Assembly: GCA_945868825.1 (NCBI GenBank)
Contig: CAMBMM010000003.1
Location: 62,001-126,000, forward strand
From: Sphingobacterium thalpophilum
GTDB taxonomy: Bacteria; Bacteroidota; Bacteroidia; Sphingobacteriales; Sphingobacteriaceae
DNA: 64,000 nt
Direction of reading: 5' to 3'
Shown: positions 14,623 to 55,698 of the stretch, in pieces
Numbering within the stretch: the stretch's first letter is position 1
Layout of the letters: each line of letters starts with the position of its first letter
Position numbers and translations under genes: made by a program
The notes under the pieces: model-generated
Told to the model about the DNA's origin: nothing
Database searches by the model: none
Seen by the model: only the letters and a program-made list of their open reading frames with translations

Positions 14623-15111
14623 ATGAAAAATTTATTATGCTTACTAATGGCCCTAATGCTGGGGCTAGTTATGGCCGCTTGTAACAAGCAAGGGGACTTA
14701 GCCAATCAGCAAGAATTTCTGTTAAAAGCTCCAAGTGGAGTTACGATAGCAGCAAATTTTGATGATTTAATGAAAGTTGCGCTAGAAACAGTTTCTGAAA
14801 CTTCTGGATTGGAAATCACCAAAGTAGATTATTTACCCGTTAAAACTGGCTTCGTTGCCATTATTTGGTATAAAACCAAGGCTGGGGCTGCTGGTAATTT
14901 TGCCTATGTTCGGTACCCAAAAATTGAGTACAACGCAAAAAGACTAGTGGTTAAACGAGGAGGTGTTACAAGCCAATTAGTTAAAGGAGATATTACGGTA
15001 AGTTGCAATGGAAGTTGTGGTTGTGTAGTTAGTGGTGAAATTAAGCCCGATGGCACTATTACGTTTAGATGTGGTTGTTCTGATTGTACCACTACCATCA
15101 AAAACACCTAA
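14623..15111 (+). CDS. Cys-rich lipoprotein of unknown function
   Basis: 162 residues. The N-terminus is a lipoprotein signal with a lipobox ending AAC (Cys20), then a polar segment and an alpha/beta-looking middle region (FDDLMKVALETVSETSG...GFVAIIWYKTK). The last 45 residues hold six cysteines in the order SCNGSCGCVVSG and FRCGCSDC, which looks like a metal-binding or disulfide knuckle. I do not recognise the family. The gene stands alone, divergent from ywbE and convergent with uvrB, and ends in a hairpin at 15120-15160. The signal and Cys cluster are certain; metal binding is inference. Confidence 0.8.
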   Translation: MKNLLCLLMALMLGLVMAACNKQGDLANQQEFLLKAPSGVTIAANFDDLMKVALETVSETSGLEITKVDYLPVKTGFVAIIWYKTKAGAAGNFAYVRYPKIEYNAKRLVVKRGGVTSQLVKGDITVSCNGSCGCVVSGEIKPDGTITFRCGCSDCTTTIKNT

Positions 15112-18497: not shown

Positions 18498-18559
18498 GTT
18501 TTTACAAACTTAATCTTTGCTTAACCTTAAGTTTAAGTGGGTATACTTTATTTGTAAAT

Positions 18560-18685
18560 ATGAGTATAGAATTCATTTTTACAAGCATTTGTTTGTTGGC
18601 TATTGCACTATTTTGGTTTAGTCCTTTCGAAATTAAAGTAGAAGATGATGCAGACGAATGGTTTTCTGAAACTTCAACACGATGA
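18560..18685 (+). CDS. 41-residue membrane peptide coupled to the phosphoesterase gene
   Basis: A short frame from ATG at 18560 to TGA at 18685. It has one hydrophobic helix of about 18 residues (EFIFTSICLLAIALFWF) and an acidic tail (KVEDDADEWFSE). Its TGA overlaps the ATG of the next gene (ATGA), the same coupling as at 17979 and 28477, which is the main reason to believe it is translated. A near-consensus -7 box (TTTATTTG) ends 5 nt before its ATG. I know no family for it. It could be an inner-membrane anchor or subunit for the LpxH-like enzyme, or simply a leader peptide. Confidence 0.55.
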   Translation: MSIEFIFTSICLLAIALFWFSPFEIKVEDDADEWFSETSTR

Positions 18686-19527
18686 AGAAAAGAGCCGTTG
18701 ACCTGGTAGTTATATCAGATGTGCACTTGGGCACTTATGGCTGTCATTCTAAGGAATTGCTCAATTATTTAAAATCTATACAACCTAAAACACTAGTGCT
18801 AAACGGCGATATTATAGATATATGGCAGTTTAAAAAATCGTACTGGCCAGAAAGTCACATGAAAGTGATTCGGCAAATTTTAAAATTTGTAAGCAACGGG
18901 GTACCCGTACATTACCTAACAGGCAACCACGACGAAATGCTGCGAAAATTTGATGATTTTCACCTAGGCTCATTTAACATTAAAAATAAATTAGTGCTAG
19001 AATTGGGTGAAGAGCGTGCTTGGATTTTTCATGGCGATGTGTTTGATGTAACCATGCAATATTCGAAGTGGTTAGCCAAACTAGGCGCTATAGGCTATGA
19101 TACCTTGATTTTACTAAACAGTTTTGTGAATTGGGTGCTCACTTTATTGAAAAGAGAAAAAATGAGTTTCTCTAAAAAGGTGAAAGCTAGTTTTAAAAAT
19201 GCCGTGAAGTTTATCAATAGTTTTGAGCAAACTGCAGCAGAATTAGCTATTGATAAAGGGTACCAGTTTGTTATTTGCGGCCATATTCATCAACCCGAAA
19301 TTAGAACCATTACTACAGAAAAGGGTGTAGTTACGTATCTCAATTCGGGCGATTGGGTGGAAAATTTGAGTGCATTAGAATATCATGATGGCGAATGGTC
19401 GATTTATAAATACGACCCTAAAAATTTTGCTGATAAGCACCTAGAAGAGGATCTGGAGCTGGAAAATTTAGCATCAAAATTAGATGTAAAAATTTTGTTG
19501 GATCAAATGCGCTTTGAAGCGGTTTAA
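18682..19527 (+). CDS. LpxH-like metallophosphoesterase
   Basis: 281 residues of the calcineurin-like phosphoesterase fold. Metal-binding motifs in order: SDVHLG (D13, H15), NGDIID near residue 42, GNHDE near 82, an HGD around 115, and CGHIHQPE near 203. The close spacing of these motifs and a helical insert (KKVKASFKNAVKF) match Bacteroidota proteins annotated UDP-2,3-diacylglucosamine diphosphatase, which make lipid X for lipid A. Whether this copy is the main LpxH or a paralogue acting on another pyrophosphate lipid cannot be told from sequence. The next gene, a glycosyltransferase, starts 12 nt later. Confidence 0.78.
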   Translation: MKKRAVDLVVISDVHLGTYGCHSKELLNYLKSIQPKTLVLNGDIIDIWQFKKSYWPESHMKVIRQILKFVSNGVPVHYLTGNHDEMLRKFDDFHLGSFNIKNKLVLELGEERAWIFHGDVFDVTMQYSKWLAKLGAIGYDTLILLNSFVNWVLTLLKREKMSFSKKVKASFKNAVKFINSFEQTAAELAIDKGYQFVICGHIHQPEIRTITTEKGVVTYLNSGDWVENLSALEYHDGEWSIYKYDPKNFADKHLEEDLELENLASKLDVKILLDQMRFEAV

Positions 19528-19539
19528 AAAATTTCTTTT

Positions 19540-20535
19540 TTGAAAATTTTATTTGCCATACAAGGAACAGGCAATGGCCATATTAGCCGTGCTAAAGAAA
19601 TATTGCCTTATTTGCAACAATACGGCCAAGTAGATGTGTTGATTAGCGGCACCCAAGCCGACGTTTTTTTAGAGCAACCCATCGCCTATCTCTTACACGG
19701 TTTTAGCTTCATTTTTGGCCAAAAAGGGGGAGTAGATATTTGGGCAACTATCAAAAAATTGAAACTTTTTAGGCTTTTAGCCGATATTAAACACCTTCCT
19801 GTAAAAAACTACGATCTTGTTATTAATGATTTTGAGCCTATAAGCGCTTGGGCTTGTAAAATACGCAAAGTACCTTGCATAGCCCTGAGTCATCAATCGG
19901 CTTTCCTTTCCCCAAAAACACCACGGCCTACCCAAAAATCTGCTTGGGCCGAACTCATTTTTAAGTACTATGCCCCATGCACCAACCGTTTGTCTTTTCA
20001 TTTCAAATCGTACGATAATTATATTTATACACCGGTAATTCGTTCCGAAATACGTGCATTAGAGCCAAAGGATTTGGGCCACATTACCGTTTACCTCCCC
20101 GCATATGCCGATGAACTTTTACTGAGCTATTTTGAGCAAATACCCGAAGTGCGGTGGCAAATTTTTTCGAAACATTGCACACAAGCCTATCAGCAAAACA
20201 ATGTTTCTGTAAGACCAATTAGCAATACGGGCTTTAACCAAAGTTTGGCCAATGCCCATGGTTTAATAACCGGTGGTGGTTTTGAGGGCCCAGCAGAAGC
20301 CTTATTTTTAGGTAAAAAGTTACTGCTTATTCCAATGAAAAATCAGTACGAGCAACAATGCAATGCTTCCGCTGCCTCTAAAATGGGCGTTCCCGTAATT
20401 CAGCGTATAGGCCCCGATTTTGTAGCACAACTTAAAGGCTGGTTGCAAAAGCCTTTTACTTTTAAGCCTAATTTTCCCGATCAAACCAATCAAATAGTAG
20501 CAGATCTCATGAAACGTTTCAGCAAAATAACTTAA
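19540..20535 (+). CDS. MurG/MGD1-like glycosyltransferase family protein
   Basis: 331 residues from a TTG start. ILFAIQGTGNGHISRAKEI is the N-terminal GT-B loop of MurG/MGDG-synthase-like enzymes; GLITGGGFEGPAEALFLGKK is the C-terminal donor-binding region with the usual GGxxxxxEAL pattern. Such enzymes use a UDP-sugar and a membrane lipid acceptor at the cytoplasmic face. It is not MurG itself: the MurG-specific acceptor loops are not seen. Position behind an LpxH-like phosphatase suggests glycolipid or lipid A-type modification, which is an inference. Confidence 0.75.
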   Translation: MKILFAIQGTGNGHISRAKEILPYLQQYGQVDVLISGTQADVFLEQPIAYLLHGFSFIFGQKGGVDIWATIKKLKLFRLLADIKHLPVKNYDLVINDFEPISAWACKIRKVPCIALSHQSAFLSPKTPRPTQKSAWAELIFKYYAPCTNRLSFHFKSYDNYIYTPVIRSEIRALEPKDLGHITVYLPAYADELLLSYFEQIPEVRWQIFSKHCTQAYQQNNVSVRPISNTGFNQSLANAHGLITGGGFEGPAEALFLGKKLLLIPMKNQYEQQCNASAASKMGVPVIQRIGPDFVAQLKGWLQKPFTFKPNFPDQTNQIVADLMKRFSKIT

Positions 20536-20563
20536 TATTGCTTTGGTTTTTATACAGCCAAAA

Positions 20564-21535
20564 ATGATTAAGCTATTTCGAACCTTTCATCCCTTAAGCG
20601 CACTGCCATTATTTGGCTTAGCCTTGTTTTTGCATTTATTCAATTGGACTGAAACCGATACTAGCTTAGCGAATATGGGTGTGGTTCCACTATATCGCCA
20701 CCTGTTACTTCCCGCAGATAGTACTTTATTTTTACCCTTTGCAACCAGTAAATGGCTGGGTTTTATTCTCCTATTTTCACAAGCACTATTATTTAATAAG
20801 GTTATTAATACGCATAATTTATTGGGTAAACCCAGTTTTCTGCCGGGTTTACTTTATATCGTTTGTACGAGTTTTGCCGATACGCTTGGCGTATTTAGCC
20901 CCGTACTTTTAGTGAATTTTATACTTATTTGGTTATTAAACCAATTTTTGAGTAGCTACCGCAAAGCCGATGCCCGTGACTTAATTTTTGATATGGGGTT
21001 ACTTATAAGTTTGGGCACTATTTTGTATGCGCCCTTCATTTTTTTCTTAGCTATTGTATGGGTGGGGCTGCTAATTTTTCGCTCATTTAATTGGCGTGAG
21101 TGGGCCATGGCCGTATTAGGACTAGCCACAGTCGCTTTTTTCTTGGCATTCTACTATTATTGGAATGGCGAATTGTCAAATTGGCTAAGCTATTGGCAAC
21201 TACCAAGAACCGTAAATCCAATAAGTCAACTTCCTTCATTGGTTTTAACGGTGGTAGCTCTTATTGGTATTTTGGGTTTAATTCAGCTACGTGCAAATTT
21301 TTTTAGAAGTATTGTTCACATTCGTAAATCTTTTCAATTGTTATCCGCTTTATTTGGTGTAGTTATTTTGTCGTCGGTATTTGCCTATGGCATTCAAAGT
21401 AATCATTATGTATTGGCAAGCGTGCCACTTTCTGTATTGTTGGCCTATTATTTTATGCATGCAAGTAGAGCATGGGTTTACGAGTCGATCTTCATTTTGT
21501 TATTGGCTAGTGTGCTATATTTTCAGTGGGTATAA
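20564..21535 (+). CDS. DUF6427 family membrane protein
   Basis: 323 residues from the ATG at 20564; seven upstream in-frame codons to 20543 are less likely. About nine to ten membrane helices cover the whole protein, with the family-like stretch FRTFHPLSALPLFGLALFL at the start and LLNQFLSSYRKADARDLIFD near the middle. Only Bacteroidota carry this family, and its function is not known. It closes a run of four closely spaced genes with envelope features. Confidence 0.65.
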   Translation: MIKLFRTFHPLSALPLFGLALFLHLFNWTETDTSLANMGVVPLYRHLLLPADSTLFLPFATSKWLGFILLFSQALLFNKVINTHNLLGKPSFLPGLLYIVCTSFADTLGVFSPVLLVNFILIWLLNQFLSSYRKADARDLIFDMGLLISLGTILYAPFIFFLAIVWVGLLIFRSFNWREWAMAVLGLATVAFFLAFYYYWNGELSNWLSYWQLPRTVNPISQLPSLVLTVVALIGILGLIQLRANFFRSIVHIRKSFQLLSALFGVVILSSVFAYGIQSNHYVLASVPLSVLLAYYFMHASRAWVYESIFILLLASVLYFQWV

Positions 21536-21597: not shown

Positions 21598-22290
21598 ATG
21601 AAATTTGGCGTTGTTACTTTCCCCGGATCTAATTGTGATCAAGATATCATAGATGTTCTTAGTAGAATTATGGGCCAGCCCGTAGAAAACTTATGGCATA
21701 AAAATCATGAGCTTAAAGGTGCTGATATGATCATTCTTCCGGGTGGGTTTTCTTACGGAGATTACCTGCGTTCTGGAGCCATTGCACGCTTTTCGCCTGT
21801 GATGCAAGAAGTAATTCAATTTGCCAAAAAAGGCGGATATGTATTGGGCATTTGCAATGGATTTCAAATTTTAACCGAAGCCGGTTTGGTACCGGGTGCC
21901 CTATTGCATAACGACAACCGAAAATTTATTTGCCGAAATATTTATTTAAAACCAGCTACCTCAAATAGTTTACTTACATCAGAACTCGACCCCAATACCG
22001 CTTTAAAAATTCCGATTGCACACGGCGAAGGCAATTATTTCGCCCGTCCTGATATAATCAAATCTATTGAAGATCAAGATCAAGTATTATTTCGTTATTG
22101 CGATGAATTGGGTAACGTAACTCCAGAAGCTAACCCGAACGGCTCTATGCACAATATAGCTGGCGTATGCAATGCCGAGCGCAATGTGTTTGGTATGATG
22201 CCACATCCAGAACGGGCCGCAGATCCTATTTTGGGTAACCAAGATGGGGTGGCAATTTTCGAGTCGATTTTGAAATCGGTACTAGCTTAA
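21598..22290 (+). CDS. purQ: Phosphoribosylformylglycinamidine synthase subunit PurQ
   Basis: 230 residues. The class I glutamine amidotransferase subunit that supplies ammonia to PurL in step four of purine synthesis. Visible: [24 protein letters not shown], the nucleophile in GICNGFQIL (Cys86), HGEGNYF, and the catalytic His and Glu in [10 protein letters not shown]. Length and motifs are normal. purL and purS are not in this window. coaX starts 2 nt after its stop, so it leads an operon of at least coaX and probably the outer-membrane protein gene. Confidence 0.95.
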
Positions 22291-22292
22291 TC

Positions 22293-23036
22293 ATGTTTCA
22301 TCTAGTTATTGATATTGGGAATTCTTCTCAAAAAATAGCTGTTTTTGAACAGCATAACTTGCTACATACTGAAATCACTACGTCGCTCGATAGTAAAAAA
22401 CTAGCACAAATTTTAGCGCAATATCCCTGTTCCCATAGCATCATTTCTTCTGTAAACCAAGAAGTAGCAGTGCTAGAACAGTACTTGGCTAAACAGAATA
22501 CATACATCCGATTTACAGCTGGTACTCCCAATCCTATACATAACCAATACCAAAGCCCCGAAACACTAGGTTTAGATCGTTTAGCTACCATGGTAGCTGT
22601 TTCTGCACTTTTCCCCAAGCAAAACACCTTGGTAATAGATGCGGGCACTTGCATCACCTACGATATGCTTGATGCCCAAGCCAATTATTTTGGCGGTAGT
22701 ATTAGCCCCGGAATTCAGATGCGCTTTAGAGCTTTACATGAATTTACTGGCAGGTTACCTTTGGTGTCTTTTTCTCCAGAACACATAGATCTGGTGGGCA
22801 TAGATACTCCGACAGCTTTGCAATCGGGTGTAGTAAACGGCCTATTGGCCGAAGTAAATAGCATCATCACGCAATATCAACAAAAACACGCCCAACTAAA
22901 TGTGGTGTTCTGTGGCGGCGATGCTAATTTTTTTGATAGTCAGCTTAAAAATAGCATCTTTGCTAGCAATAGTTCATGTATACCCCACTTGGTTCTAATC
23001 GGGTTAAATGAAATTATCCATCATCAACATGAGTAA
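22293..23036 (+). CDS. coaX: Type III pantothenate kinase
   Basis: 247 residues, of the ASKHA-fold CoaX family: phosphate-1 loop DIGNSSQKIAVF at the N-terminus, DRLATMVA, the adenosine/phosphate region IDAGTCITYD and the pantothenate-side GGSISPGIQMRFRALHEFTGRLP split by the family glycines. It catalyses the first step of CoA synthesis with no inhibition by CoA and needs a monovalent cation. The start is 2 nt after purQ, and its last eight bases overlap the next gene. Confidence 0.95.
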   Translation: MFHLVIDIGNSSQKIAVFEQHNLLHTEITTSLDSKKLAQILAQYPCSHSIISSVNQEVAVLEQYLAKQNTYIRFTAGTPNPIHNQYQSPETLGLDRLATMVAVSALFPKQNTLVIDAGTCITYDMLDAQANYFGGSISPGIQMRFRALHEFTGRLPLVSFSPEHIDLVGIDTPTALQSGVVNGLLAEVNSIITQYQQKHAQLNVVFCGGDANFFDSQLKNSIFASNSSCIPHLVLIGLNEIIHHQHE

Positions 23037-24318
23037 AAAAATTACATACCTTATACTAGTATTAGTTGCCGTTGTGGGAAGTCTTAAAGCCCAAAATACA
23101 ACCAATTCACCTTACAGCCAGTTTGGACTTGGAGATATTAAGCCCATGCTTGTGCCTCAGCAAATAGGTATGGGTGGCATTGCCGTTGGCTTACGCAAAA
23201 CAGGTGGATACAGTATGATTAACGTAGCCAATCCCGCAGCATATAGTACCATCAGTCTTACTACTATGGATATGGGTGCTTCGCTTGATATGAGAACCTT
23301 AAGCAAATCGGGTACCTCAGAAAAGCTTACCAATGGTACGCTTGGACATTTCTTGGTAGGCGTTCCTGTGAATAAACGTTCAGCCTTAACCTTTGGATTG
23401 ATGCCATTTAGCGATCTAGGTTATCAATACCGTATGCACACGCTAGTTGATACATTCAAGGTAGATCATTTATACAGTGGTGAAGGCGGTTTGTCAAAAG
23501 CACATGTGGGTTATGGCTACCAATTTGGTAAGAAACTAAGTTTGGGATTTAATTTAGCTTATATTTTCGGAAATCTCAAAGTGCGTCAATCTGCAGAATT
23601 CCCAGAAGATCCGTATGCATTGGCCACTCGTACACAATCAGACAAAAGTTTAGGTGGGCTTAATTTTCAATACGGAGTACAGTACACGTTTAATCCGGCT
23701 GCTAAATCTATTGTTACGCTAGGTTATTCGGGTGCGGCTAGTTCCCGTATCAAGTCTTCGGGCTCTATAACCAATTATCGTTACCGCTACGATGCGGTTG
23801 CACAAGTAGAATCAGAGCCATTAGACACACTTTATTACAATCCTGCTGCAGAGTCAAAAATTAATCTACCCATAAAACAGGCACTTGGTATTAGTATTTC
23901 TCGACCAGATCATTGGACCGTGGGCGCCGATTTTAGTTTTACTAAATGGTCAGGTTTAACAGATGGCGGTACAAATGCAGGGTTGAAAGATGCATATAGT
24001 GTATCCATAGGAGGGCAGTTTACACCAGACATTACTGCCGTATCAAACTATTTTAAATTAATAGATTACAGTATTGGTTTCAGATACGATAAAACCTATA
24101 TCAATATTAACAATACCCCGATAAACCAATATGCGCTAAGTTTTGGCATGGGTCTACCCTTGCCAGCCAATAGAAGCACATTTTATAAAATTAACCTGGC
24201 TGGTGAGTTAGGCAAGCGTGGTAGCCTTAGCAATGGTTTAGTAAAAGAGAATTACCTCACCATACATTTGGGTTTTGTGATTAATGATAGATGGTTTATT
24301 AAAACCAAGTACGATTAA
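23029..24318 (+). CDS. Outer-membrane beta-barrel protein (FadL/PorV-like fold)
   Basis: 429 residues from the ATG at 23029. The open frame begins at 23008, but the later start gives a proper signal peptide (KKITYLILVLVAVVGSLKAQ). The mature part opens with NSPYSQFGLGD, and IGMGGIAVGL with a following NPAAYS is typical of FadL-like Bacteroidota barrels; alternating amphipathic strands continue to the C-terminal WFIKTKYD. Homologues often sit between coaX and lptC, so a role in outer-membrane assembly or transport is plausible, but the cargo is unknown. Confidence 0.8.
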   Translation: MSKKITYLILVLVAVVGSLKAQNTTNSPYSQFGLGDIKPMLVPQQIGMGGIAVGLRKTGGYSMINVANPAAYSTISLTTMDMGASLDMRTLSKSGTSEKLTNGTLGHFLVGVPVNKRSALTFGLMPFSDLGYQYRMHTLVDTFKVDHLYSGEGGLSKAHVGYGYQFGKKLSLGFNLAYIFGNLKVRQSAEFPEDPYALATRTQSDKSLGGLNFQYGVQYTFNPAAKSIVTLGYSGAASSRIKSSGSITNYRYRYDAVAQVESEPLDTLYYNPAAESKINLPIKQALGISISRPDHWTVGADFSFTKWSGLTDGGTNAGLKDAYSVSIGGQFTPDITAVSNYFKLIDYSIGFRYDKTYININNTPINQYALSFGMGLPLPANRSTFYKINLAGELGKRGSLSNGLVKENYLTIHLGFVINDRWFIKTKYD

Positions 24319-48639: not shown

Positions 48640-51600
48640 TTGAGGAAAACTGCCTACGTTTTCTTATTTTTTTTAAGTGTAGTTCTATTTGGAATTTCGC
48701 AACAAGGGGTTGCGCAAGTAAAGACGCCAAACAGTGCCGATAGTTTAACATTACGTTACCCCATTAAGGATTCTAAATCCTTAATCTTTGGAAGATCTTT
48801 TGGACTAACACTGCCCAATCCATCTAATATTAAACGCTCGGTAGTATTCAACCCTTTTACTAAACAATACACCATTCAGGATAACATAGGTGGCCAATTT
48901 TTTAGAAATCCATATTACTTAACTATCCTTGAATACCAACGCTTCGAAAATAAACAACTACTAAAAAACACCTGGCGTGATTTGGCCGACCAATCGGTTT
49001 CAGCGGCCCGTCAACCGGGCTTTATTCCGCCGGTAAAAATTAATAGCCGATCTTTTGAACGCCTTTTTGGTGGCTCGACCATTGAAATTATACCCCAAGG
49101 CTCGGCGGAGCTAACTTTTGCAGGCCGGATTAATAAAAACGAAAATCCCTTATTTAACGAACGGCAACGTACGCAAGGTAATTTTGATTTTAACCAACGT
49201 ATTCAAATGAATTTAGTGGGTCAAGTTGGCGAAAAATTAAAAATAAGCACCAATTACAATACCGAAGCCCAATTCGATTTTGAGAATCAGGTTAAACTAG
49301 ATTATACAGGTAAGGAAGACGAAATTGTACGTAAGGTGGAAGCCGGAAATGTGAGTTTACCGCTTAGCTCATCGTTAATAACCGGCAGTCAAGCCCTTTT
49401 TGGCTTAAAAACACAATTGCAATTTGGCAAATTGGGGGTAACTAGTATTTTCTCCCAACAAAAATCGCAATCGAAGGAAATTACCATTACCAATGGAGCG
49501 CAGCAAAACGAATTTAGGTTGCTTGTCGATAGCTACGAAGCCAACAAGCATTATTTTTTAAGCCAGTTTTTTCGCAACCAATATAATTTGGCCTTAAAAA
49601 AACTGCCCATTATCAGCAGCAACATCAACATTACTAAAATTGAGGTTTGGGTAACCAATAGAGTGGGTACCACTACCGATTCTAGAGATGTGTTGGCTTT
49701 CATGGATTTAGGAGAAAATAGTCCATATAACCAGGCACAAATTCAAGGGGGTGCAGCATATTCTTCTTACCCGGCGGGTTTTAGTGGCCCCGGTTTTGCG
49801 CAACAATCTAACAATTTATTGCAGACCCTGCCGCTTGGAGCCCGCTTAACCAATTCGAATGCAATTAACGTATATTTTCAGGCAAATGGTGCTACCGATA
49901 ATTTTGCTAAACTTACCTATGCCCGCAAGCTAACAGATAAGGAATATGCCATCAGTCCGCAACTGGGCTATATTTCTTTAAATACGCCGCTTAATGCCGA
50001 TGAAGTATTGGCGGTGGCATACCGCTATACAGTGAATGGTACAGAGTATCAGGTGGGAGAATTTTCGAATGATTTGCCTGTAAATAATGAGCTTCCAGAG
50101 GTTTTGTATGTAAAATTACTTAAAAACGAAATCCTTAAAACCAATTTACCAACCTGGGATTTGATGATGAAAAATATCTATTCCTTGGGAGCATATCAAG
50201 TATCATCTTCCGATTTTCGCTTAAACATATTCCGTTTAGATGAGCAATCGGGAGTAGAAAAACCTCAAATGACCGAGGGGCAAAATACCAATGGCAAGTT
50301 GTGGCTACAGCTTACTAATTTGGATAATATCAACCAGCAAAACGATCGAAAGCCCGATGGCTTTTTCGATTTTATTCAAGGCATTACTATTGATGCATTA
50401 AATGGCCGCATTACTTTTCCTACGGTAGAGCCCTTTGGTGCCGATTTAGCAGCTCAATTTACCCCTGCCGAAGCTGTGTTAGCTGCAAAATATGTGTACC
50501 AACCTTTATATGATTTAACCAAGGCTGATGCCCAACAACTCTTTCCGAAATTGAATAGATACATTCTAAAAGGGACCTACCAATCGCAAGTAAGTTCGGA
50601 GTTTCAACTCAATGCCATAAACATTCCCGAAGGTTCCGTACAGGTAATTGCCGGTACCATACCTTTGCAAGAAGGCGTAGATTTTACTATTGATTACAAT
50701 ATTGGCCGAGTGCGAATTTTAAATCAAGCGCTTTTAAATTCTGGGCAACCTATTCGCATAAAATTAGAAAATAGTGAACTTTTTGGTATGCAACAACGTT
50801 CGTTATTTGGTACTCGGTTTGACTATAGGGCCAATAAAAAACTGAACCTCGGTGCTACCTTACTAAATTTAACCGAGCGACCGCTAACACCAAAAGTAAA
50901 CATTGGCGACGAGCCTATATCCAATACCATTTGGGGTTTAGATATGAATTACCAATCGGATTCTCGGTGGCTTACCCGCATGGTAGATAAAATCCCATTC
51001 ATTTCTACCAAAGAAAAATCAAGTATTACTTTTTCTGGCGAATTCGCCAAGTTTATTCCCGGCCACCCCAGTGCACTTAACTTTGCCGGAACTAAAAATG
51101 GTTCTAGTTATTTAGACGATTTTGAAGCCACCCGTTCGTTAATTGATTTAAAGAGTGCTATTACTTGGCAAATATCGGGCACACCACAACTTTTCCCCGA
51201 ATCGCAGCAGTTTAACAATTTAACATATGGCTTTAACAGAGCCCGAATAGCCTTCTACAACATCGACCCAATTTTTTATAATCGGAGTGGTAGTGGCACC
51301 CCAGCTGATGTAAAGTTGAATGCCAATGAATTATCCAATCATTATAGTAGAGAAGTATTAGAAAAAGAAGTATTTCCCTTTAAAGACTCTCCCACCGGGC
51401 AGCCCTTGTTTTTACCTACACTCAATATGGCTTTCTATCCAAACGAACGTGGCCCCTATAATTACACCAACGCCGGATTAAATGCGGATGGAAAACTACT
51501 TAACCCCAAAACCAGATGGGGTGGTATGTTCCGTAAATTAGAGAGCAACGATTTTGAAGCCCTTAATATTGAATTTGTAGAATTATGGATGTTAGATCCA

Positions 51601-54600
51601 TTTCTGTATAAACCCAATGCCGAAGGTGGCGATTTGTATTTCGATTTAGGTAATATATCCGAAGACATATTAAAAGATGATCGCAAATCATTAGAAAATG
51701 GCTTGCCCACCGATGGAGACCCAGCCAAAACCGATGTAACCGCTTGGGGTAGGGTGCCTAAACTACAGCCCGTTATTCCGGCGTTCGACAATAATCCTGC
51801 AGCCAGAAAATTGCAGGATGTGGGCTTAGATGGATTATCGGATATTCAAGAGCAACAATTTTTTACCAGTTTTGTAAATCAAGTAAGCCCGCAATTAAAT
51901 GCAATAGCAGCCGCAGCCCTAGCTGCCGACCCATCGTCAGATAATTACCAATATTTTAGAGGAAATGTATTTTCTGGGTCTGCTAGTTCTATTTTAAAAC
52001 GCTACGAAAAATATAACGGTACCGAGGGTAATTCTAAAACCCAAGAACAATCCTTGGCCGAAACAGGTATTGAAAACTCGGCTTCTACACCGCTACCCGA
52101 TGGGGAAGATGTAAATCGGGATAATAACAGTTCTAAAGCCGATGAGTATTTTGAGTACAAAGTGTCCATTCGGCCTCAGGATTTACAGCAGGTAGGCACT
52201 AATTTTATTTCAGATATCGTATCAACGAGTGTAAAGTTGGCCAATGGCAAGCAAGAAACCGTACGTTGGATTCAATTCAAAATTCCCTTGGCACAATTTC
52301 TTACTAAGGTGGGCAATATTCAAGATTTCAAATCTATACGTTTTGTGCGTTCCTATATGACCAATTTTGCTGATACCACCATTTTGCGTTTAGCCAAACT
52401 GCAATTGGTACGTGGCGAATGGCGCCGCTACAATGCCGAAAATAATCTGGCTAAAGTAATTGCCGATCCGGCACTTATAAACCCGGGTTTAGACAATTCG
52501 AGTTTAGAAGTAAGTGCGGTAAATATCGAAGAAAATGGCAAGCGAACTCCTATCCCGTATGTTACTCCCCCTGGTATTTTACGTGAATTAGATTACAGCG
52601 GATATAATGCCAATACCCGCCAAAATGAGCAATCGCTTTCTGTTAGAGTAAAAAGTTTAAAAGATGGCTATGGCAGAGCAGCTTTCCGAACATCATTTAA
52701 CGATTTTAGATCGTACCGGCGAATGGAAATGTTCATCCACGCCGAAAGTGCCAATCCGGTAAATCCGATTAACGATAAAGATGTGAGCGCTTTTATTCGC
52801 ATAGGTAGCGACAATCAAGATAACTATTACGAATACAGTATCCCATTAAAAATTACGGCACCCAATACCAGCGATGCCAATGCTATTTGGCCAGCCGAAA
52901 ACAAATTGGATGTACCGCTGAGCTTGTTTCAAATTGCCAAAACGGCCCGTAATAATGCGCAATTAGGTGGGCAGCCCTGGCCACCCAATGTACCTTTCCA
53001 ATATAGCGACGGACAAAATACCGTTACTGTAATGGGGCAACCTGATATGAGCAAAGTACGTGTATATATGTTGGGTGTCCGCAATCCTTTAAAAACTGTT
53101 ATAAATGCTGCCGACGATGGTTTAGATAAAGACGCAGAAGTGTGGTTTAACGAATTGCGTTTAAGTGATTTTGACGAACGTGGCGGCTGGGCGGCTACCG
53201 CTAGATTAAACGCCAAGCTAGCCGATTTTGCCGATGTATCCGTATCGGGCAGTAGAAGTACCAACGGCTTTGGTTCTTTGGATAGGAAGGTGAGCGAACG
53301 CAACCGTAAGGATCAATCTATTTTTGATGTATCCTCAAGCATAGAAGCCGGAAAACTATTCCCACAACGGTCGGGTATCAAAATTCCGATGTTTGTGAAT
53401 TTCTCACAACAGGTGAGTACGCCCATGTTCGATCCTCGTGCACCCGATATTGAGCTTAAAAATGCTTTAAATAATTCGCCTAAATCGGTACAAAGAGATA
53501 TTTTAAATGTGGTGCAAGATTATACCACCCGTAAGAGTATCAACTTTACCAATGTGCACAAGGTGAAAACTAATTCGGAGAGTAAGCCGCAATTGTGGGA
53601 TATAGAGAATTGGAGCGCCAGCTATGCCTTTACCGAATACAATCACCGCGATTTTATTAACCAGCAAAGCATTCAAAAAACCTACAAAGCAGGCTTGGCC
53701 TATAATTATTCACGGCAGGCCAAATCTATAAGTCCATTTGCTAAAATTATAAAGAAAAACAGTTTAGCGCTTTTGAGAGATATCAACTTCAGTATCTTCC
53801 CGTCGGTATTAAATTTCCGTATAGATGTAGATCGGATGTACTCGGAAAATACGCTTAGAAATAACGACCCAAATAATTTTATTCCGGTAGGTACCACCTA
53901 TAACAAGAATTTTCAGATGACCCGTTTATATGGCATCAGTTGGAATTTAACCCGTTCTCTCCAGCTCGATTTTAATGCCACCAATTATTCGATTATTGAT
54001 GAACCCGATGGGCGTATTAATGGCTTGAAACGAGATACACTTTGGCAAAACCTAATGCGCTTAGGCCGCACTACCGATTATGGCCATACCGCAAACCTCA
54101 CCTACAATGTGCCCATAAGTAAAATCCCGGGCTTTGATTGGATAACCCTTACTACTCGGTATGGAACTACGTTTAACTGGAAAACAGAACCCTTATCGAG
54201 CATAAACGATCCTAGTATTAATCTGGGGAATAGTATTCAGAATACCCGAATACTTCAGTTAAATCCATCCTTTAACTTCAGTTCGTTGTATAATAAAATA
54301 GGGTTTTTAAAACGGGTAAATACCGATGAAACGGCTAACAAATTTGTGAAAGCCTTGGTAAACACGCTTACTAGCCTAAAAAATATCAGCGGGGCTTATA
54401 CCCGAACGCAAGGCACCTTTTTGCCTGGTTATTTACCTAAAACCACCGCCTTTGGCCAAGATTTTTCGAGCGATGCGCCTGGTTGGGATTTTTTATTTGG
54501 TAGCCAGCGTGATATTAGACCAAGAGCCACTACCGAGGGCTGGATAACTAAGGATCCGCTTTTAAACCAACTTTACGTAACCGGCTTAAAAGAAGATCTC

Positions 54601-55698
54601 AATCTAAGAGGAACTCTAGAGCCTTTAAAAGATTTGCGAATAGAATTAACTGCACTAAAAAGTAGCAATTTCAACTATTCTACCACCTTTAAATTTATAG
54701 CGGCAAGCAATAGTTTCGAGAACTTGAGCCCAATTACTACCGGCGATTACAGTATTTCTTTCTTCAGTTTCGGCACCGCCTTTAAAAAAGATAAACCAGG
54801 AAGTGCCGCCAATTTGTTTCGCCAATTTGAAAGTAACCGATCGGTTATTTCCCAACGCTTGGGCGCCTTAAATTCGAATTCATCGGGAGTAGCCAATGGC
54901 TTTTCCGATGGTTATGGTAAAGCTTCGCAAGATGTGGTAATTTCTTCTTTCTTAGCAGCTTATAGTGGCAAATCGGCTGATAAAATTAGTTTAAATACCT
55001 TCCCTAAAATCCCGATTCCGAACTGGCGAATGAACTATAGCGGCTTAAGCAGCTTACCTTTCTTAAGCGATATTTTCGCTTCTATAGATATCAATCACGC
55101 TTATAAATCTACCTATAGCATTAGTGGATTTAACTCCTTAGCCCGCTATACCGAGACTAATGGAATGGTGAATGTGCGTGATGTAAGCAATAACTTCTTA
55201 CCTAAATATCAATTTAACCAAGTAACCTTGTTTGAGCAATTTGTGCCGCTTTTAGGCATCGACATGCGTTTTAAAAACAATTTGAGCTCTAATTTTGAAT
55301 ACCGAAAATCGAGAACCATGGGCTTGAGTTTGGCGAATAGCCAGTTGGCCTTACAAACCGATGAAGCCATTGTATTTGGTTTAGGCTACCGAACCACCGA
55401 TTTTAGATTCCCCTTCGGTTTATTTAAAAGCCTAAAAATGAATAATGATTTAAATTTTAAACTAGACTTTGCCATTAACGACCGTAAAACGTTAATTTAT
55501 CGGGCCGATGTGATAGATGCCGAAGTATCTTCAGGTGCTAAAAATATTACCTACCGCCCATCGGTTGATTATGTATTAAACCAGCGTTTAAACTTGCGCA
55601 TTTTCTACGATGGCAACATCACTAAACCTTATACTTCACAAAGTTTCAATACCTCTTTTAGTAATTTTGGTTTTACCCTCCGTTTTGCCATTCAATAA
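48640..55698 (+). CDS. sprA: SprA, type IX secretion translocon pore
   Basis: 2352 residues from a TTG start. Signal peptide (TAYVFLFFLSVVLFGISQQ, cleavage near VAQ). SprA/Sov proteins form a 36-stranded outer-membrane barrel, the pore of the type IX system, and are needed for gliding. Typical openings seen are YPIKDSKSLIFGRSFGLTLP and NPFTKQYTIQDNIGGQFF; central Tyr/Asn/Phe-rich beta strands run to the terminal NTSFSNFGFTLRFAIQ. The TTG start is 26 nt after ruvA. It works with PorV (1199) and the GldJ-like lipoprotein. By far the largest gene in the window; no frameshift is seen. Confidence 0.96.
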   Translation: MRKTAYVFLFFLSVVLFGISQQGVAQVKTPNSADSLTLRYPIKDSKSLIFGRSFGLTLPNPSNIKRSVVFNPFTKQYTIQDNIGGQFFRNPYYLTILEYQRFENKQLLKNTWRDLADQSVSAARQPGFIPPVKINSRSFERLFGGSTIEIIPQGSAELTFAGRINKNENPLFNERQRTQGNFDFNQRIQMNLVGQVGEKLKISTNYNTEAQFDFENQVKLDYTGKEDEIVRKVEAGNVSLPLSSSLITGSQALFGLKTQLQFGKLGVTSIFSQQKSQSKEITITNGAQQNEFRLLVDSYEANKHYFLSQFFRNQYNLALKKLPIISSNINITKIEVWVTNRVGTTTDSRDVLAFMDLGENSPYNQAQIQGGAAYSSYPAGFSGPGFAQQSNNLLQTLPLGARLTNSNAINVYFQANGATDNFAKLTYARKLTDKEYAISPQLGYISLNTPLNADEVLAVAYRYTVNGTEYQVGEFSNDLPVNNELPEVLYVKLLKNEILKTNLPTWDLMMKNIYSLGAYQVSSSDFRLNIFRLDEQSGVEKPQMTEGQNTNGKLWLQLTNLDNINQQNDRKPDGFFDFIQGITIDALNGRITFPTVEPFGADLAAQFTPAEAVLAAKYVYQPLYDLTKADAQQLFPKLNRYILKGTYQSQVSSEFQLNAINIPEGSVQVIAGTIPLQEGVDFTIDYNIGRVRILNQALLNSGQPIRIKLENSELFGMQQRSLFGTRFDYRANKKLNLGATLLNLTERPLTPKVNIGDEPISNTIWGLDMNYQSDSRWLTRMVDKIPFISTKEKSSITFSGEFAKFIPGHPSALNFAGTKNGSSYLDDFEATRSLIDLKSAITWQISGTPQLFPESQQFNNLTYGFNRARIAFYNIDPIFYNRSGSGTPADVKLNANELSNHYSREVLEKEVFPFKDSPTGQPLFLPTLNMAFYPNERGPYNYTNAGLNADGKLLNPKTRWGGMFRKLESNDFEALNIEFVELWMLDPFLYKPNAEGGDLYFDLGNISEDILKDDRKSLENGLPTDGDPAKTDVTAWGRVPKLQPVIPAFDNNPAARKLQDVGLDGLSDIQEQQFFTSFVNQVSPQLNAIAAAALAADPSSDNYQYFRGNVFSGSASSILKRYEKYNGTEGNSKTQEQSLAETGIENSASTPLPDGEDVNRDNNSSKADEYFEYKVSIRPQDLQQVGTNFISDIVSTSVKLANGKQETVRWIQFKIPLAQFLTKVGNIQDFKSIRFVRSYMTNFADTTILRLAKLQLVRGEWRRYNAENNLAKVIADPALINPGLDNSSLEVSAVNIEENGKRTPIPYVTPPGILRELDYSGYNANTRQNEQSLSVRVKSLKDGYGRAAFRTSFNDFRSYRRMEMFIHAESANPVNPINDKDVSAFIRIGSDNQDNYYEYSIPLKITAPNTSDANAIWPAENKLDVPLSLFQIAKTARNNAQLGGQPWPPNVPFQYSDGQNTVTVMGQPDMSKVRVYMLGVRNPLKTVINAADDGLDKDAEVWFNELRLSDFDERGGWAATARLNAKLADFADVSVSGSRSTNGFGSLDRKVSERNRKDQSIFDVSSSIEAGKLFPQRSGIKIPMFVNFSQQVSTPMFDPRAPDIELKNALNNSPKSVQRDILNVVQDYTTRKSINFTNVHKVKTNSESKPQLWDIENWSASYAFTEYNHRDFINQQSIQKTYKAGLAYNYSRQAKSISPFAKIIKKNSLALLRDINFSIFPSVLNFRIDVDRMYSENTLRNNDPNNFIPVGTTYNKNFQMTRLYGISWNLTRSLQLDFNATNYSIIDEPDGRINGLKRDTLWQNLMRLGRTTDYGHTANLTYNVPISKIPGFDWITLTTRYGTTFNWKTEPLSSINDPSINLGNSIQNTRILQLNPSFNFSSLYNKIGFLKRVNTDETANKFVKALVNTLTSLKNISGAYTRTQGTFLPGYLPKTTAFGQDFSSDAPGWDFLFGSQRDIRPRATTEGWITKDPLLNQLYVTGLKEDLNLRGTLEPLKDLRIELTALKSSNFNYSTTFKFIAASNSFENLSPITTGDYSISFFSFGTAFKKDKPGSAANLFRQFESNRSVISQRLGALNSNSSGVANGFSDGYGKASQDVVISSFLAAYSGKSADKISLNTFPKIPIPNWRMNYSGLSSLPFLSDIFASIDINHAYKSTYSISGFNSLARYTETNGMVNVRDVSNNFLPKYQFNQVTLFEQFVPLLGIDMRFKNNLSSNFEYRKSRTMGLSLANSQLALQTDEAIVFGLGYRTTDFRFPFGLFKSLKMNNDLNFKLDFAINDRKTLIYRADVIDAEVSSGAKNITYRPSVDYVLNQRLNLRIFYDGNITKPYTSQSFNTSFSNFGFTLRFAIQ

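Follow-up and report, generated by a model that had tools for sequence, protein, structure and literature searches.

Phosphate-saving lipid remodelling by a PlcP-type enzyme and a lipid glycosyltransferase (GT) is a published pathway (PMC4796936, PMC8528852), and the literature consulted also included PMC9239053 and PMC8231724. In the PlcP-Agt systems of Pseudomonas aeruginosa (PA3219-PA3218), Sinorhizobium meliloti, Pelagibacter, and Phaeobacter, the PlcP-type gene is followed by that of the lipid GT and a phosphate-regulator box lies upstream (PMC8528852, PMC4796936). The role of PA3219-PA3218 in low-phosphate glycolipid synthesis was shown by mutants (PMC8528852). Within the Bacteroidota, Flavobacterium johnsoniae has a PlcP, Fjoh_4577, which was called an 'orphan' and is strongly induced at low phosphate, with 8.59 in the change column (PMC8115612). 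The present analysis concerns four coupled genes from Sphingobacterium thalpophilum of the same phylum, located in a stretch of 64,000 nucleotides (nt) of contig CAMBMM010000003.1 (positions 62,001 to 126,000), hereafter the window. These genes probably form a phosphate-controlled operon that makes a phosphorus-free glycolipid, as a variant of the known PlcP pathway. The core of the locus is of a known pathway kind, misnamed by annotation and equipped with a different GT, while the regulator site, a microprotein, and the fold of a DUF6427 protein are new.

Four open reading frames (ORFs), all on the + strand, were called between a DinB-like gene and purQ. They encode a 41-amino acid single-span membrane microprotein (18560..18685, stop codon included), a PlcP-type metallophosphoesterase of 281 amino acids (18682..19527), a GT-B glycosyltransferase of 331 amino acids with a TTG start (19540..20535), and a DUF6427 membrane protein of 323 amino acids (20564..21535). 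They are preceded on the same strand by a candidate phosphate-regulator operator at 18510..18536, composed of three TTAAC-like half-sites spaced 11 bp apart. An earlier note, made from the sequence alone, had described four genes on one strand with short or overlapping joints, and the ORF calls confirmed each joint: the stop codon of the peptide overlaps the metallophosphoesterase start at 18682 (ATGA), 12 nt separate the metallophosphoesterase and GT genes, and 28 nt separate the GT stop from the DUF6427 start. Pfam and NCBIfam were concordant on the families of the three larger proteins. The four-gene arrangement is beyond chance, as peptide orthologues were found in the same place in many genomes and the middle pair was found phylum-wide. 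The evidence presented below was obtained by computation and consists of family and tree placement, conserved pairing, peptide conservation, a shared operator, and two folds. The source genome (label G000) is 1.66 Mb in size and 99.4% complete.

The metallophosphoesterase (PF00149/PF12850) shared 40.0% identity over 245 residues with a P. aeruginosa homologue (L115), 37.1% over 237 residues with an S. meliloti homologue (L113), and 23.9% over 255 residues with the LpxH of its own genome. The gene of the P. aeruginosa homologue has a 4-nt overlap with a glycosyltransferase gene, and this pair was taken as PA3219-PA3218 from its gene order. The S. meliloti gene adjoins acyl-homoserine lactone (AHL) synthase and LuxR-type genes, and we take it to be the published plcP. 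PlcP is reportedly dependent on Mn. In a tree of 37 rows, 12 LpxH rows were split from the 25 window and PlcP-type rows with a support of 100/99, which leaves the window protein outside the LpxH clade. The second, canonical lpxH that the earlier note had suggested searching for was found elsewhere in the genome (G000:C2:96384-97076) and is the better match to the LpxH model (82.7 versus 48.7 bits). Among the 31 genomes of the relatives search, an LpxH-like match was present in all 31 and a close copy of the window PlcP in 18, the source genome included. At least two LpxH-like matches were found in 17 of these 18, the exception being a genome that is 71% complete.

The window protein also scored below the curated LpxH cut-offs of TIGR01854 (48.5 versus 190.35 bits) and PRK05340 (58.5 versus 134 bits), although failing TIGR01854 is not decisive alone because the canonical LpxH of this genome, at 82.7 bits, fails it too. 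The window enzyme and LpxH share the calcineurin-like phosphoesterase family and its metal motifs, but LpxH forms a separate clade. The signature D..GD..GNH(E/D)..H..GHxH, as given in PMC3087551, is present in the window protein and invariant across 18 aligned sequences, as are the metal-site residues D13, H15, D43, N82, H83, H201, and H203. LpxH chains were the only sequence relatives in the PDB at E <= 0.001. By sequence, then, the enzyme is placed as PlcP-type and not as the lipid A pyrophosphatase of this genome, and it is likely a cytosolic phospholipase C yielding diacylglycerol.

A close PlcP (at least 300 bits) was found in 58 of 198 Bacteroidota genomes, and the GT gene lay directly downstream in 46 of the 58. 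Ten of the remaining 12 had no close GT anywhere. The cut-offs of 300 bits for PlcP and 280 bits for GT were chosen by the authors, and the count was based on 77 PlcP-type and 67 GT places entered by hand, with weaker rows left out. The co-occurrence of PlcP and GT among the 198 genomes gave a Fisher p of 3e-32, uncorrected for kinship, and many of the pairs overlap by 4 nt. The conserved unit is thus a PlcP followed by a GT of the MurG/UGT fold. In Flavobacterium proper, PlcP orthologues were found without this GT as a neighbor, and a GT match was absent in three of the four such genomes searched, in agreement with the description of the F. johnsoniae PlcP as an 'orphan'. We infer, without a sequence comparison, that Fjoh_4577 is orthologous to the window gene. 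The GT Fjoh_0541 of F. johnsoniae is different, as its listed family is pf04101 and its gene is part of the PhoBR operon (PMC8115612).

The earlier note had named joint conservation of the four genes as a test of its reading, and this held only for the middle pair, which is accompanied by DUF6427 and the peptide in Sphingobacteriales-type loci alone. Members of the cassette were lost singly even within the genus. For example, in the congener G004 the PlcP-GT pair sits apart, beside ppx- and ppk1-like genes (read from translations). A single indivisible four-gene cassette was therefore rejected, since DUF6427 was found to adjoin the pair only in Sphingobacteriaceae-type genomes and the peptide is separate from the pair in G004, G005, and G007. 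As a side observation, in 18 loci a motif search placed a GH1 glycosidase-like ORF near PlcP or the PlcP-GT pair (L033, L039, L046, L051, L068, L072, L073, L074, L076, L078, L081, L082, L085, L088, L089, L097, L103, and L108), two of which were confirmed as PF00232, and such an enzyme could trim or recycle the glycolipid. Additionally, genome G165 contains two close GT copies, one beside PlcP and the other beside DUF6427 without PlcP (C92, C96).

The AlphaFold model of the GT (predicted local distance difference test, pLDDT, of 93) showed a GT-B fold, with YojK (Z 22.8), MurG (Z 21.7), and the yeast sterol glucosyltransferase (Z 21.2) as its best structural matches. The substrate cannot be read from the fold, because UDP-sugar epimerases of the same fold scored almost equally. 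A sequence relative in the PDB was not found at E <= 1. The match to TIGR00661 reached 157.5 bits against a cut-off of 195.9, over positions 1-295 of 321, and on this score the protein is placed as a relative outside the curated TIGR00661 (MJ1255/VC2487) subfamily. A literature search on MJ1255, TIGR00661, or VC2487 returned one paper, on natural transformation. The GT likely transfers sugar from a UDP-sugar to a lipid acceptor. In comparison with PlcP-Agt, the window GT is of the PF13528/TIGR00661 type and not GT4: it carries PF13528 with a sub-threshold PF13439 match, whereas the PlcP partners of P. aeruginosa and Sphingomonas match GT4 domains (PF13439, PF13692, and PF00534). Hence, the same operon layout appears with different GT families in two phyla. 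The window operon also differs by the addition of the microprotein and DUF6427, and by its half-site TTAAC in place of the CTGTCAT consensus quoted in PMC8528852.

The microprotein has one hydrophobic stretch, an acidic tail, and a motif around SP[FY][ED]L, and no Pfam or NCBIfam family matched it above the cut-off. An ORF of this type, 29-41 amino acids long, was found upstream of PlcP at 35 of 99 loci and is represented by 33 distinct DNA sequences, as found with a motif that was written after inspection of the loci. Over 86 close pairs, the mean nonsynonymous difference (pN) was 0.157 and the mean synonymous difference (pS) was 0.641. As pN is well below pS, the microprotein itself appears to be under selection, and it is a conserved but unannotated protein. 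At E <= 0.011, it was detected in 12 of the 31 genomes, beside PlcP in nine and away from it in three. The operator and peptide run into DUF6427 in G004 and G005, and into GT and DUF6427 in G007. In all three, the peptide is again the first gene after the operator (operator scores of 11, 12, and 12), and on the evidence of these loci a link of the peptide to PlcP alone was rejected.

The operator of the window consists of TTAAT, TTAAC, and TTTAA exactly 11 bp apart, lies 24 nt before the peptide start, and scores 12 of 15. Such sites are unremarkable alone, with eight found on both strands of the 64 kb, and their weight is comparative. Of 32 peptide loci, 28 have the operator, some 60 nt ahead of the first start codon, against a shuffle expectation of 0.47. 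It was found in none of the 32 regions further upstream, and other spacings gave from 0 to 6. The duplicate or near-duplicate loci L002, L011, and L012 were omitted beforehand, L069, L072, L077, and L089 were manually excluded from the third group of loci, and any locus having less than 60 nt upstream was skipped, including one of Flavobacterium. At PlcP loci not used for its definition, the operator was found in five of 10. It was absent before all 12 canonical lpxH genes and before all 11 DUF6427 genes of other groups.

Phosphate genes shared the motif. It preceded all three pstS-like genes above 160 bits (two from one genus), and it was found once among 129 other upstream regions of the same loci. 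In the source genome the motif lies before the PhoB-like gene with the best match (G000:C1:505864-506532; 12 of 15, at the spacing of 11 only), the phosphate transporter operon PhoU_div-PiT, and a TonB-dependent receptor gene divergent to ppk1. Three other regulator genes of this genome lacked it, and in two relatives it precedes orthologues of the PhoB-like regulator. A strict form of the pattern gave 14 matches in four relatives against two for a reversed control. Two of the 14 were at plcP operons and two at the regulator gene, and the rest were without an evident phosphate link. Pho boxes have an 11-bp direct-repeat layout, and the motif is a candidate Pho box, having 11-bp repeats shared with phosphate genes of the same group. 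A TTAAC Pho box with 11-bp repeats was not found reported for Bacteroidota in the literature search, and the term 'Pho box' is absent from the accessible part of PMC8115612. A further operator-like site (L200, G000:C1:77806-77831) was observed, with a PAP2 phosphatase gene starting 26 nt after it and GtrA-like and PMT_2-type genes next, and these genes may form another lipid or glycan operon with a phosphate link.

From these observations we infer the substrates, the product, the direction of regulation, and what DUF6427 and the peptide do as follows. At phosphate shortage, a PhoB-like regulator would act at the three half-sites at 18510-18536. The PlcP-type enzyme would remove the phospho-head group of membrane phospholipids at the cytosolic face to yield diacylglycerol, and the GT-B enzyme would add the sugar of a UDP-sugar, giving a phosphorus-free glycolipid with phosphate freed. 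DUF6427 may modify the glycolipid or help move it on the periplasmic side, and the microprotein at the operon head may be a membrane partner of one enzyme. The earlier note's suggestion of a dedicated glycolipid-type pathway is supported. Its statement that no described pathway has this set does not hold for the core pair, because remodelling by PlcP and a lipid GT has been published.

Several results weigh against a phosphate-controlled glycolipid operon. The flavobacterium studied in PMC4796936 produced aminolipids instead of glycolipids. Judged by its Pfam families, the window GT is not an Agt, and the literature search yielded no paper in which a TIGR00661-type GT had been tested. The operator motif was spotted by eye in the same sequences that were later counted, for which reason it was also tested elsewhere. 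Outside Sphingobacteriales, it was found at three of 40 other close PlcP loci (four of 40 in the control region), and at two of five Flavobacterium PlcP loci. It preceded one of nine PstS-like genes of 80-160 bits and none of 18 weaker ones. A looser form of the pattern was not enriched in the source genome (13 matches versus 14 in the reversed control) and only part of the 13 precede evident phosphate genes, on which grounds a genome-wide regulon drawn from it was rejected. Among the phosphate proteins of this genome, a PhoU_full match was absent in a search that was positive in 14 of 14 controls, the PstS-like match was weak, and the PhoB matches remained below the cut-off (231 versus 296 bits).

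For DUF6427 (PF19992), the earlier note's ten-helix membrane protein came close to the model (pLDDT 84), which has about 11 membrane-length helices. The best structural match was Pmt4 (Z 20.2; root-mean-square deviation 4.4 A; 311 residues), and the best 50 rows listed comprised PMT, OST/PglB, AglB, ArnT, Alg, arabinosyltransferases, PimE, C-mannosyltransferase, and proteins of the glycosylphosphatidylinositol (GPI) pathway. Foldseek alone gave a best E of 2.4e-3. A GT-C glycosyltransferase fold is therefore predicted, as in PMT, PglB, ArnT, and the GPI-transamidase subunit, although a shared fold shows no function and DUF6427 differs from these enzymes in its identity of about 6-15%, the lack of a soluble domain, and a first-loop acid that is not invariant. 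In active GT-C enzymes, the first periplasmic loop carries a conserved acid. In the DUF6427 alignment an EPF-like acid is present in many rows and is missing there in the window protein and others. A search of the literature found no papers on DUF6427.

DUF6427 was matched in 25 of the 198 Bacteroidota genomes, and among those searched it lies beside the PlcP-GT pair only in Sphingobacteriaceae-type genomes. It precedes purQ in Chitinophagaceae-type loci (L139, L152, and L157) and adjoins upp and purD in Flavobacteriaceae-type loci, with gene names taken from translations and gene order. With purine-type neighbors elsewhere, its tie to the PlcP-GT pair is local. In the window, purQ (21598..22290, + strand) is the next gene and lies outside the lipid module. 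It is possible, though less likely than not, that DUF6427 is a bystander of the purQ block that merely shares a transcript with the lipid genes, as its purine neighbors and the absence of the operator from all 11 other-group loci would suggest. Against this, the operator and peptide of the congeners G004 and G005 are followed directly by DUF6427 at a locus that lacks the pair, and a GT-C fold adjoining a lipid GT is suggestive.

We regard it as unlikely that the two enzymes act on sphingolipids or another backbone, converting phosphoceramide to ceramide and then to glycoceramide, which would be a constant component of the envelope rather than a phosphate-saving response. In Fuscovulum (L161), the gene directly downstream of a PlcP-type gene is annotated as a ceramide glucosyltransferase, but the Fuscovulum protein is just 29% identical, and characterised PlcP enzymes act on glycerophospholipids (PMC8528852). 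Similarly, the retention of the pair in a 1.66 Mb genome without PhoU_full and the scarcity of the operator outside Sphingobacteriales (three of 40) would fit a standing role, while an operator common to phosphate genes speaks for the phosphate response. The earlier note's lipid A variant, with the first enzyme as a second UDP-2,3-diacylglucosamine pyrophosphatase, is very improbable and that identity was rejected, since the shared superfamily, the product name UDP-2,3-diacylglucosamine diphosphatase given to such proteins in annotated records elsewhere, the weak LpxH-model matches, and the downstream LptC and BamG genes are set against the 100/99 tree split, an identity of 24% to LpxH versus 40% to PlcP, the canonical lpxH elsewhere in the genome, and the reported failure of P. 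aeruginosa lpxH2 to replace E. coli lpxH (PMC3087551).

Three other features of the window were observed. The ORF at 23008-24318 had an NCBIfam BamG match of 371 bits, and the block of purQ, coaX-like, bamG-like, and lptC-like genes was kept in relatives. The 162-amino acid protein encoded at 14623-15111 begins like a signal sequence, is rich in cysteine at its C-terminus, and had no Pfam or NCBIfam match. A very long ORF at 48640-55698 encodes 2,352 amino acids.

In a broader and more speculative form, which we hold to be doubtful, the Bacteroidota would have a second, independently assembled phosphate-saving remodelling, in which PlcP is joined to a MurG/UGT-type GT family without a known lipid role. 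A microprotein under phosphate control and a compact DUF6427 of the GT-C fold would then, in Sphingobacteriales, act on the product at the far side of the inner membrane, and the whole would be governed by a TTAAC Pho box with 11-bp repeats. The analysis yields a testable pairing of a GT with lipid, a candidate Pho box of Sphingobacteriales, a predicted fold of DUF6427, and a conserved microprotein that had no annotation. Annotation of the first enzyme as a lipid A enzyme hides what is likely a lipid switch for saving phosphate throughout one of the major phyla of soil and freshwater bacteria.

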